A stretch of DNA of 64,000 nt from Maricaulis maris MCS10. GTDB lineage: Bacteria; Pseudomonadota; Alphaproteobacteria; Caulobacterales; Maricaulaceae. Below, in pieces: positions 16,134 to 19,974 of this stretch; position 1 is the stretch's first letter, and each line of letters starts with the position of its first letter. The position numbers and the translations under genes are program-made. The stretch spans positions 3,116,001 to 3,180,000 of the forward strand of contig NC_008347.1 of NCBI RefSeq assembly GCF_000014745.1, written 5' to 3'. The notes under the pieces are model-generated. The model ran no database searches, was not told the DNA's origin, and saw only the letters and a list, made by a program, of their open reading frames with translations.

Positions 16134-16165
16134 AAGCCCCGCCGGATCGGGATCGGGCGGGGCTT
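16134..16165. terminator. Bidirectional terminator between acyltransferase and sdhB
   Basis: A 10-bp GC-rich stem (16134-16143 with 16156-16165) with a 12-nt loop. A six-base A-run on the left serves as the U-run for minus-strand transcription of the sdh operon; the plus-strand side has only TTG. Confidence 0.75.
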
Positions 16166-16188: not shown

Positions 16189-16968
16189 CTAGCCCTCGCG
16201 CTCGACCATCATCTGCTTGATCTCACCGATGGCCTCGGCCGGGTTCAGCCCCTTCGGGCAGACCTGGGCGCAATTCATGATGGTGTGGCAGCGATAGAGC
16301 TTGAACGGGTCATTGAGCTCATCGAGGCGCTCGCCCGTGGCTTCATCGCGGCTGTCGGCCAGCCAGCGATAGGCTTGCAGCAGGGCCGCCGGACCCATGT
16401 ATTTGTCGCCATTCCACCAATAGGACGGGCAGGCGGTCGAGCAGGAGGCGCACATGATGCACTCGTAGAGCCCGTCCAGCTTTTCGCGCTGCTCGGGGCT
16501 TTGTTTCCACTCTTTCTCGGGTGCCGGCGTATCGGTCTTGAGATAGGGCTTCACGGCCGCGTGCTGGGCGTAGAATTGCGTCAGATCCGGGATCAGGTCG
16601 CGAACCACCGGCTGGTGCGGCAGCGGCGAGATGGTGATGTCACCCTTGTACTCGTCGATACCAGAGGTACAGGCGATCGTGTTGCGACCGCCGATATTCA
16701 TCGAGCAGGAGCCACACACGCCCTCGCGGCAGGAGCGGCGGAAGGCCAGCGAGGCGTCGACATTGTTCTTGATCCACAACAGGGCATCGAGAACCATCGG
16801 CCCGCAATCATCCATGTCGACCTTGTAGGTGTCCCAGCTGGGCGTCTCGTCGGTTTCCGGGTTGTAGCGGTAAACCTTGAACGTGCGGGTGTTGGTCGCG
16901 CCGTCCGGCTTGGGATGGGTCTTGCCCTTTTTCGGGGCGGAACCTTTGGGAAGTGTCAGCTGAACCAT
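16189..16968 (-). CDS. sdhB: Succinate dehydrogenase iron-sulfur subunit
   Basis: A 259-residue subunit of respiratory complex II that passes electrons from SdhA to quinone. The [2Fe-2S] ligands lie in [15 protein letters not shown] with a distal IAC, the [4Fe-4S] cluster in [12 protein letters not shown], and the [3Fe-4S] cluster in [17 protein letters not shown]. Length and order are normal. It is the last gene of the operon, 12 bp after the DUF3052 gene rather than directly after sdhA. Confidence 0.98.
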
Positions 16969-16980
16969 GCGGGTCCTCGT

Positions 16981-17406
16981 TCAGTTCACGACGCGCTTGG
17001 CGCGCGGGATCATCAGTTTCAGGCCGGACCAGATCGCGTCGACGGCGCACACTTTCACATCGACCAGGTCGATGGGCAGGGCGACATCACGGATCACGTC
17101 CTCGGTCATGTCGGTTTCGACTTTCGACGCCTTCTTGGGCCAGGAGACCCAGATCATGCCGTCTTGTCGGATGGATGAGCGCAAGCGCGGCAGATCGGTT
17201 TCGAACTCGGTACGCACCTTTGTGAAATAGTGCACATAGTCGAGCTCATCACCGGCCTCGGCCGTCGCCTGTTCGCGGGCAAAGACCGCCGCCGAGCGCA
17301 GATCGTCATGCGCTTCGGGCAGATTCAGGAATGCCACAGCCTGCCCGTCCTTGAGACCGAGCTTTCCTGGCAGGGGCGTGCCTGAATATCCGGCGGTTTG
17401 CGCCAT
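16981..17406 (-). CDS. DUF3052-family protein inside the sdh operon
   Basis: A 141-residue soluble protein. GYSGTPLPGKLGL near the N-terminus, WVSWPKKASKVETDMTEDVIR in the middle and VDVKVCAVDAIWSGLKLMI at the end are the hallmarks of the DUF3052 family, whose members have no known function. Its ATG lies two bases after the sdhA stop, with the ribosome site AGGA overlapping that stop, and its own stop is 12 bp before sdhB. So it is translated as part of the sdhCDA-x-B message. Placement suggests, but does not prove, a role linked to complex II, such as assembly, cofactor insertion or regulation. The known SdhA flavinylation factor SdhE is a different family. Confidence 0.88.
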   Translation of the reverse strand: MAQTAGYSGTPLPGKLGLKDGQAVAFLNLPEAHDDLRSAAVFAREQATAEAGDELDYVHYFTKVRTEFETDLPRLRSSIRQDGMIWVSWPKKASKVETDMTEDVIRDVALPIDLVDVKVCAVDAIWSGLKLMIPRAKRVVN

Positions 17407-17408
17407 TC

Positions 17409-19196
17409 CTAGTAAACCCGCGCCTTCGGCTTGATGTACTCGATATCATTGGACATCGTGTAGGTGTGGACCGGGCGGTAGTCGATCTTCACATTGCCGG
17501 CCTCGTCGCACCAGGCGAGCGTGTGCTTCATCCAGTTTTCGTCGTCACGATCGGAGAAGTCTTCGCGGGCATGGGCGCCGCGGCTCTCTTCACGATTGGC
17601 CGCGCCGTTCACCGTCACGGCCGCCTGGCTGAGCAGGTTGTCCATCTCGAGGGTTTCCATGAGATCGGTATTCCAGACCATGGTGCGGTCGGTGACACCG
17701 ATATCGGCCATGCCCGTATAGACCTGTTTGATCGCCTCAACGCCCTCGGCGAGCACGTCGCCCGTCCGGAAAACGGCACAATTATTCTGCATGGAACGCT
17801 GCATTTCCAGCCGCAGCTTGGCGGTCGGCGTGCCGCCGGCGGCATTGCGGTACTTGTCGAGACGATCTAGCGAAAGCTGACCGTCCGTGCTCTTGATCTC
17901 CGGCTGGCTGGCACCGGCCTTGGTCGTCTCGCCCAGGCGCAGGCCAGCGGCGCGGCCGAAGACCACGAGGTCGATCAGCGAGTTCGAGCCGAGACGATTG
18001 GCGCCATGCACCGAGACGCAGGCCGCTTCGCCGACAGCCATCAGGCCCGGCACGACCGTATCGGCATCACCGCCGACCTTGGTCAGGACTTCGCCGTGAT
18101 AATTGGTCGGGATACCGCCCATATTGTAGTGGACCGTCGGCAGGACCGGGATCGGCTCCTTGGTCACATCGACACCGGCAAAGACGCGCGCACTCTCCGA
18201 AATGCCCGGCAGGCGCTCGCCCAGAATGTCCGGATCGAGATGGTCGAGATGGAGGTGGATATGGTCGCCATTGGCGCCGACACCGCGGCCTTCGCGGATT
18301 TCCATCGTCATCGAGCGTGAGACCACATCGCGGGAAGCGAGGTCTTTCGCGGATGGGGCATAGCGCTCCATGAAGCGCTCGCCGTTGGAATTGGTCAGAT
18401 AGCCGCCTTCGCCGCGGGCGCCCTCGGTGATCAGGCAGCCGGCGCCGTAAATGCCGGTCGGGTGGAATTGCACGAATTCCATGTCCTGGAGCGGCAGGCC
18501 GGCGCGCAGCACCATGGCATTGCCGTCACCGGTACAGGTGTGGGCCGAAGTGGCGGAGAAATAGGCGCGGCCATAGCCGCCCGTCGCCAGGACCACGGTC
18601 TGGGCGCGGAAACGGTGCAGCGTACCGTCATCCAGCTTCCAGGCGGTGATACCGCGGCAGACACCGTCATCATCCATGATCAGATCGAGCGCGAAATACT
18701 CGATGAAGAATTCGGTCTCATTGCGAACCGACTGGCCATAAAGCGTGTGCAGGATGGCGTGACCGGTGCGGTCGGCAGCGGCACAGGTGCGCTGGACCGG
18801 GCCTTCGCCGTAATTCTTGGTCATGCCGCCAAAGGCGCGCTGATAGATCTTGCCGTCTTCGGTGCGCGAGAAGGGCACGCCCCAGTGCTCGAGCTCGTAC
18901 ACGGCGGCCGGCGCTTCACGGCAGAGGTATTCAATGGCGTCCTGGTCGCCCAGCCAGTCTGACCCCTTGACGGTGTCATACATGTGCCAGCGCCAGTCAT
19001 CCTCGCCCATGTTTCCGAGCGAGGCGGAAATCCCGCCCTGGGCCGCAACCGTGTGCGAGCGGGTCGGGAAGACCTTGGTGATACAGGCGGTCTTCAGACC
19101 GGCCTGGGAAGCTCCGAGCGCTGCACGAAGGCCCGAGCCCCCGGCGCCCACGACGACCACGTCATAGGTGTGATCGATCCATTTGTATTCGGCCAT
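17409..19196 (-). CDS. sdhA: Succinate dehydrogenase flavoprotein subunit
   Basis: A 595-residue flavoprotein that oxidises succinate to fumarate with covalently bound FAD. It shows the N-terminal [15 protein letters not shown], the SHTVAAQGG segment with the FAD-linking histidine, the substrate loop [21 protein letters not shown], and [19 protein letters not shown]. Length is normal. It starts 12 bp after sdhD. The adjoining downstream gene is DUF3052, not sdhB. Confidence 0.98.
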
Positions 19197-19208: not shown

Positions 19209-19580
19209 TTAAAGCGCGAGTTTGAGCAGGGCAAAGGCGGTGACGAGCCACAGCCCCAGCGTCAGGAAAGTGTTTGCCAGCATCAAAAGCGTCTTGGTGC
19301 CGTGCTTGTGGACATAGTCCTCGATGATCACCTGCATACCCAGACGCATGTGCGACAAACCCGCCGTCAGGGTGAGCAGGGTGATGATGGCACCAGCCGG
19401 GCTGGAAAAGAATTCGGCGGCGCTGGCGGGCGCGCCGGATTTTGCCAGCATCCAGACGAAGACAGGCGCCAGGAAGAAAAGCGCGATCGAGGTCACACGG
19501 TGGACAATCCAGTGGCTGGCGCCATGGCCGGATGCGCCGAGCCCGCGAACCTTGGCGGTGGGAGTACGATAATCACTCAT
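19209..19580 (-). CDS. sdhD: Succinate dehydrogenase hydrophobic anchor subunit
   Basis: A 123-residue membrane anchor with three predicted transmembrane helices. It contains the conserved GASHWIVHRVTSIALFFLAP, with the quinone-site region, and HMRLGMQVIIEDYVH, whose histidine is a likely haem b ligand. With SdhC it anchors complex II and binds ubiquinone. The start is one base past the sdhC stop, so translation is coupled. Confidence 0.95.
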   Translation of the reverse strand: MSDYRTPTAKVRGLGASGHGASHWIVHRVTSIALFFLAPVFVWMLAKSGAPASAAEFFSSPAGAIITLLTLTAGLSHMRLGMQVIIEDYVHKHGTKTLLMLANTFLTLGLWLVTAFALLKLAL

Positions 19581-19581
19581 C

Positions 19582-19974
19582 TCAAATCCCCAGATCGAGC
19601 CAGATCAGCGCGGTCGGGATGACGGCACCGAAGATGATCAGGATGGAGCGCAGGTTCGACCCTTTGGGATCATAGCCCTTGCCGGCATCCCACAGCAGGT
19701 GACGCAGGCCATTGAGCCAGTGATAGCTGACCGAATAGGTCAGGGCGATCAGGCCGAAGCGGGTCACCCAGGCCATCCAGCCCTCGAACAGGAAGCTGAT
19801 CGAACCTTCGGCGCCGAAGGCGAGAAGGACGACCCAGACGCTGATCGCGACAGCGCCGATATAATTTGCCACTCCGGTGGCACGATGAAGGATGGATGAC
19901 GCCATCGTCGCGTGCCAGCGCCACACCTGCAGGTGTGGCGACATCGGACGCGGATCAGACCAGTCGGAAGCCAT
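19582..19974 (-). CDS. sdhC: Succinate dehydrogenase cytochrome b556 subunit
   Basis: A 130-residue, three-helix membrane subunit. RPMSPHLQVWRW is the family signature before helix one, SILHRATGVANY carries the quinone-site Ser/Arg, and YHWLNGLRHLLWDAG holds the haem-ligand histidine. First gene of the operon, about 70 nt downstream of a candidate promoter. A 22-bp perfect palindrome lies within codons 12-19, in the signature motif. Confidence 0.96.
   Translation of the reverse strand: MASDWSDPRPMSPHLQVWRWHATMASSILHRATGVANYIGAVAISVWVVLLAFGAEGSISFLFEGWMAWVTRFGLIALTYSVSYHWLNGLRHLLWDAGKGYDPKGSNLRSILIIFGAVIPTALIWLDLGI
19919..19940. repeat. 22-bp perfect palindrome inside sdhC
   Basis: CGCCACACCTG is followed immediately by its reverse complement. 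It lies in the early coding region over the conserved SPHLQVWRW motif, so it may simply reflect codon choice for that motif, or it could form an mRNA hairpin near the start of the sdh message. Confidence 0.6.

Follow-up and report, generated by a model that had tools for sequence, protein, structure and literature searches.

A divergent DUF3052 gene between sdhA and sdhB of Maricaulis maris: old linkage to the complex II genes and a tentative helper role

The succinate dehydrogenase (complex II) operon of Maricaulis maris MCS10 lies on the minus strand of the 64,000-nucleotide stretch of DNA analysed here (the window; positions 3116001-3180000 of NC_008347.1), in the order sdhC-D-A-X-B, where X is a DUF3052-like gene. 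The open reading frame coordinates agree with the initial annotation, which had placed this gene between sdhA and sdhB with gaps of 2 bp and 12 bp, respectively. The features, in window coordinates, are:

19582..19974, minus strand: sdhC, cytochrome b556 subunit (TIGR02970; Pfam and NCBIfam)
19209..19580, minus strand: sdhD, hydrophobic membrane anchor (TIGR02968; Pfam and NCBIfam)
17409..19196, minus strand: sdhA, succinate dehydrogenase flavoprotein subunit (TIGR01816)
17407..17411, minus strand: stop/start junction with no spaced Shine-Dalgarno sequence, GA separating the sdhA stop TAG from the ATG of the DUF3052-like gene
16981..17406, minus strand: DUF3052-like gene, 141 amino acids, predicted trimmed methyltransferase-like (pseudo-methyltransferase) fold (open reading frame, PF11253 match below cut-off, structure model, dN/dS)
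16969..16980, minus strand: 12-bp spacer 5' of sdhB, containing GAGGA (16974-16978), 5 nt from the sdhB ATG
16189..16968, minus strand: sdhB, iron-sulphur subunit (Pfam and NCBIfam)
16137..16152, minus strand: terminator-like stem 3' of sdhB, a consensus match only

By the same consensus matching, six terminator-like sites were found in the region, with 2.8 expected.

The gene was at first labelled simply DUF3052, a name that holds at the superfamily level, although the window protein itself scores below threshold. Against PF11253 (DUF3052) it gives an E-value of 0.011 and 16.1 bits, compared with a curated cut-off of 22.7, in an alignment that is near full-length (residues 16-134 to profile positions 4-124 of 125). 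The superfamily name is valid because each of the 20 rows in alignment A1, made from relatives, matches PF11253 at E <= 0.1, the best at 4.4e-7, and because four of ten relatives scanned singly (L012, L024, L009, and L173) pass the cut-off; the other six are below it. DUF3052 is the sole Pfam family matched by the window protein up to E 10, so neither SdhE (PF03937) nor DUF1674 (PF07896) is among its matches. There was no NCBIfam match, and searches with phmmer and with a profile found no sequence relative among solved structures. From its sequence, then, the window protein is a divergent DUF3052 protein. That DUF3052 has no assigned function, as the initial annotation said, is in line with the literature searched on DUF3052, Rv2239c, and alphaproteobacterial succinate dehydrogenase assembly factors, in which no described DUF3052 function or sdh link was found; the passages concerned of a Gardnerella proteome table and of an Rv2239c protein-chip study mention DUF3052 and contain nothing on function.

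A predicted model of the window protein (mean pLDDT 91.3, pTM 0.85, from 20 sequences) has a Rossmann-like methyltransferase fold by both Foldseek and VIA-align, an assignment that applies to the predicted model only. Foldseek returned 138 matches at E <= 0.001, mostly methyltransferases. The first-ranked was the N-terminal methyltransferase-like domain of anamorsin (E 1.8e-5, TM 0.51 by query), with PrmA and other methyltransferases nearly tied in score. The top VIA-align match was 3i9f (Z 11.6, rmsd 3.3 over 129 residues), and 659 of the 1000 chains compared had Z >= 8; anamorsin was not among the best 50 matches listed. Such consistent matching to methyltransferases is what speaks for a true SAM-dependent enzyme, acting on a complex II subunit or on a quinone-pathway molecule. 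Against this, the six strands and about four helices of the model are fewer than in the canonical methyltransferase fold, and the glycine-rich SAM motif is missing. Among 188 sequences kept for the conservation count (11 long-branch rows were dropped), none has GxG in the aligned stretch 23-38 (beta1-alphaA, after the first strand), where the motif would sit, and 184 have Pro30 there instead. A working methyltransferase is improbable on these counts. The predicted fold and the absent motif together suggest a pseudo-methyltransferase, the window protein resembling an enzyme whose usual SAM-binding loop has been lost.

The possible roles first proposed for the protein had included insertion of iron-sulphur clusters. 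The cysteine motifs that hold such clusters, as in anamorsin/CIAPIN1, were not found: there is one cysteine in 141 residues, and since it is replaced by alanine in most sdh-linked relatives, direct iron-sulphur binding is unlikely. A role as iron-sulphur carrier was rejected on the same evidence.

At the start of the gene, the sequence AGGA runs across the sdhA stop codon and directly touches the ATG, with no spacer at all, and same-genus relatives have TAGGCATG, TGATCATG, or TGATCGATG in its place. Being neither well spaced nor conserved, it does not make a normal ribosome site, which is how the initial annotation had interpreted it, and coupling to sdhA termination becomes the likelier arrangement. 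The DUF3052-like gene is probably translated by stop/start coupling of this kind; co-translation with the complex II subunits, as flatly stated before, is better worded as probable translational coupling. The sdhB gene has a GAGGA of its own, and GAGGACCC is found in six of the seven gene-bearing same-genus sdhB junctions listed, the seventh having an extra gene before sdhB. One Maricaulis-type genome (L031, G205) carries an additional gene, apparently for a secreted protein, between the DUF3052-like gene and sdhB. In six of six same-genus pairs, dN/dS of the DUF3052-like gene is 0.08-0.16, indicating that it is constrained by purifying selection, though less so than SdhB (0.01-0.12 in the same pairs).

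Within the genus, the gene is found in 9 of 19 genomes, in all nine between sdhA and sdhB, and is absent from the other 10. Three of these 10 were read at the junction, where sdhA and sdhB are 11-12 bp apart; absence of the gene in about half of the genus is accompanied by no other visible change in the operon.

More widely, samples were drawn from three orders: Caulobacterales, to which the window belongs (gene in 62 of 200 genomes, at sdh in 8 of the 62); Rhizobiales (gene in 37 of 249, at sdh in 25 of the 37, one of these recognized with longer flanks); and Rhodobacterales (gene in 18 of 196, at sdh in 6 of the 18). Order labels were inferred from the genome at the centre of a sample, a Mesorhizobium record for Rhizobiales and an Aliiroseovarius record for Rhodobacterales. 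Genes in the flanks were called as open reading frames, without a gene finder. Reading farther out at the majority of unlinked loci in these orders (some 8 kb, or as far as the contig reached) yielded no sdh-linked case beyond the one in Rhizobiales; flanks of about 3 kb were read at L256 and L257-L288, and of about 1.5 kb at L249 and in a class-wide sample. In the latter, the gene is present in at least 14 of 385 genomes, a possible undercount given that at most 10 candidates were scored per genome, and apart from the window's own genome, sdh was within about 1.5 kb in none of 13. The tabulation of sdh linkage that the initial annotation had proposed thus comes out divided: 39 of 117 gene-bearing genomes in the three orders have the gene at sdh, with the linked copies in one supported clade (see below), but 78 have it elsewhere, as do the 13 of the class sample.

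A closer set, the 80 named loci that best match the window protein out of a larger number in the scan, and biased accordingly, has sdhA or sdhB within 5-kb flanks in 58 cases. Of these, 53 are between sdhA and sdhB, three are just behind sdhB, and two have only sdhA in view. Among these are records of Mesorhizobium, Aminobacter, Devosia, Maritalea, Kaistia, Pleomorphomonas, Kangsaoukella, and Frigidibacter. Around the 58 linked loci, a single further neighbour cluster is found in two orders, at one locus in each; apart from it none spans orders, which marks sdh as the partner that is kept. A few of the sequences read are irregular. DUF3052-like copies are split, interrupted, or partial in single genomes: those of G784 (L254/L408) and G097 (L283) are in split or frameshifted pieces, and that of G751 (L255/L409) is a partial, C-terminal match. 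In another genome (G143 C1 2113754-2114527; L050, L065) sdhB has an in-frame TGA, which is either genuine or due to an error in sequencing. A Rhizobium leguminosarum plasmid (L369, NZ_CP022567.1) has an unlinked copy, with the annotation hypothetical protein.

The linked copies are also close to one another by descent. In a tree of 199 rows, from which duplicates and sequences of <110 or >180 residues had been removed beforehand, the sdh label requires six changes, against a mean of 66 for shuffled labels, and none of 500 shuffles was as low; all 91 linked rows fall inside a group of 116 (SH-aLRT 95). In a tree of 72 rows, the 51 linked ones are in a group of 55 (support 94/80) together with four unlinked, one of which, L210, proved to be linked once more of its flank was read. 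With a few unlinked copies inside the linked group, exclusive monophyly is rejected for the linked copies as a whole (p-AU 0.0126); a single clade for those of the window's family is compatible with the data (p-AU 0.434). Most simply, the gene would have settled at sdh once, long ago, and then have been lost many times and moved a few times; repeated gain at the same position is a further possibility. Transfer of the sdh operon between orders was rejected as the cause of linkage in the window's family by SdhB similarity: SdhB sequences with and without the gene are 88-99% alike within the genus, and about 70-74% alike to those of other orders. The linkage, which recurs in all three orders, is real and old, and to that extent favours some tie to complex II.

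It could be asked whether the gene is simply a passing mobile or selfish element, or a decaying insertion. Its patchy presence within the genus, the plasmid-borne copy, the broken pieces in G784 and G097, and the partial match in G751 are of the kind such an origin would leave, but selection on the gene is purifying, the linked copies form an old clade, the plasmid copy is one among 72,556 plasmid records, and neither a phage nor a PADLOC match was found. This explanation is already disfavoured, and its chances look very slim. The absence of phage and PADLOC matches also led to rejection of the gene as a phage or defence gene.

A harder question is whether the position says anything about function. 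The main rival to a complex II role is that this is a general DUF3052 pseudo-methyltransferase with no special role there, which in one clade has settled, and stayed, in a gene-tolerant, steadily expressed junction. Linked and unlinked copies do have the same invariant core (GYS, KLG, HxF, WxSWxKK, DxKVxA, and WSGLK), kept by unlinked relatives that include Bacteroidota and Chloroflexota, and at the thresholds used the linked group is set apart only at positions 26, 29, 62, and 79. Other lineages keep the gene beside other partners: unlinked copies are near genes for OsmC (11 loci) and DinB (nine), in Bacteroidota plus a class locus, and near those for ribosomal protein L31 (16) and sulfotransferase (six). 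The junction, for its part, accepts other content. Seventy Rhizobiales junctions were drawn from 117 genomes of that sample with SdhB (the 30 with the highest scores and 40 others): 23 are tight (<= 60 bp), 13 have 61-250 bp, and seven have DUF3052, versus 27 in which other DNA exceeds 250 bp or (nine of the 27) no sdhA was seen in the stretch fetched. The gene is also patchy: mapped onto a tree of SdhA/SdhB from 25 genomes in the window's family, its presence requires five changes, at least four by starred branches. What this general reading leaves unexplained is that the sdh position is kept across three orders, as no other neighbour is, and that it survives the entry of other genes into the junction on either side, or a shift of the gene to just behind sdhB. 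It is nevertheless close behind the complex II reading preferred below, and nearly as plausible.

Single unrelated genes are often housed at the alphaproteobacterial sdhA-sdhB junction, for example at L323, L330, L308, and L084; the contents seen include FkbM-type and TylF-like methyltransferases and an alpha/beta hydrolase, with DUF4197 seen in the window's family. Genes of the OsmC and DinB families adjoin the Bacteroidota copies L111, L123, L153, L164, L171, L172, L176, L178, L181, and L183, hinting at thiol or peroxide stress in that phylum.

Maturation of bacterial complex II is credited to few factors. Two of these were looked for in the genus: SdhE (PF03937) is present in 19 of 19 genomes and DUF1674 (PF07896) in 18 of 19, the missing case being in a genome 69% complete, in each case with or without the DUF3052-like gene. 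In the window's genome (G000), their genes are at 1631248-1631469 and 3202774-3202917, both outside the window. Since both are there regardless, the DUF3052-like gene is neither a substitute for them nor required; the possibility of a substitute was rejected. No SdhA or SdhB position consistently tracks presence of the gene in five pairs (SdhB) and three pairs (SdhA C-terminus), a weak test.

One cross-phylum hint comes from Corynebacterium diphtheriae, where the portion of PMC13001254 that concerns it includes the DUF3052 gene DIP1686 among 66 iron- and DtxR-induced genes, along with sdhC, sdhA, sdhB, aconitase, ferritin, and cytochrome bd. This list links DUF3052 to complex II and iron by co-regulation only.

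Taken together, the best single guess, although a tentative one, is that complex II or its iron-sulphur upkeep is aided by the protein in an optional, non-catalytic manner. Probably produced along with SdhA and SdhB through stop/start coupling in sdhCDA-X-B, the protein would use its invariant Lys, Arg, and Trp residues to bind SdhB, an SdhA-SdhB intermediate, or some anionic ligand, and so might improve assembly or repair of complex II under stress. In favour are the clustering of linked copies, the position between sdhA and sdhB at 53 of 58 loci, sdh as nearly the sole neighbour kept, the dN/dS values, the anamorsin match, and the DIP1686 list. Against it are the core common to linked and unlinked copies, the 78 of 117 and 13 of 13 genomes with the gene elsewhere, its absence from 10 of 19 in the genus, the presence of SdhE and DUF1674 regardless, and the other genes hosted by the junction; it is weakened as well by the lack of a tracking SdhA or SdhB position, by anamorsin being one match of 138, and by the distance of the Corynebacterium member. 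Of the accessory factor for succinate dehydrogenase envisaged in the initial annotation, what stands is the old, kept linkage; a dedicated factor is possible, but fits poorly with the common core, the half of the genus lacking the gene, the independent presence of SdhE and DUF1674, and the mixed contents of the junction.

A more ambitious and rather doubtful extension, by analogy with the anamorsin domain in eukaryotic iron-sulphur assembly, would place the protein in an undescribed class of complex II factors in bacteria. Translated along with SdhA and SdhB, such a pseudo-methyltransferase without SAM might escort or repair the iron-sulphur subunit, and unlinked DUF3052 proteins of other phyla would do so in trans.

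If the protein does serve complex II, it would be a new sort of helper for a core enzyme, and would provide the first testable role for DUF3052, which is spread over several phyla; if not, the locus is a clear case of an unrelated gene that has long persisted within a respiratory operon. A natural experiment is available in the genus, where the junction is otherwise similar in close relatives that have or lack the gene.

Compared with known systems, the window protein shares with DUF3052 (PF11253) homology along nearly the whole profile and differs in falling under its gathering score. According to the passage of PMC4255298 that deals with it, the actinobacterial DUF3052 gene invariably adjoins a possible thiol-specific antioxidant gene, not sdh as in the window; the Corynebacterium protein is only distantly related within the family, and in the 66-gene list DIP1686 is not near sdh. 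With the N-terminal domain of anamorsin/Dre2 (CIAPIN1), the window protein would have in common a trimmed methyltransferase fold, as far as the prediction goes: Dre2, the yeast counterpart of anamorsin, is described in the relevant part of PMC3440578 as having a methyltransferase fold without two helices and one strand. The cysteine-rich, cluster-binding tail of anamorsin/Dre2 has no equivalent in the window protein, nor is there a sequence match between them, DUF3052 being the only one to E 10. SdhE/SDHAF2 and the SDHAF4-like DUF1674 belong to different families, are encoded elsewhere in the genome, and occur independently of the window gene; if the helper reading is right, they and the DUF3052-like protein would have the same target enzyme.
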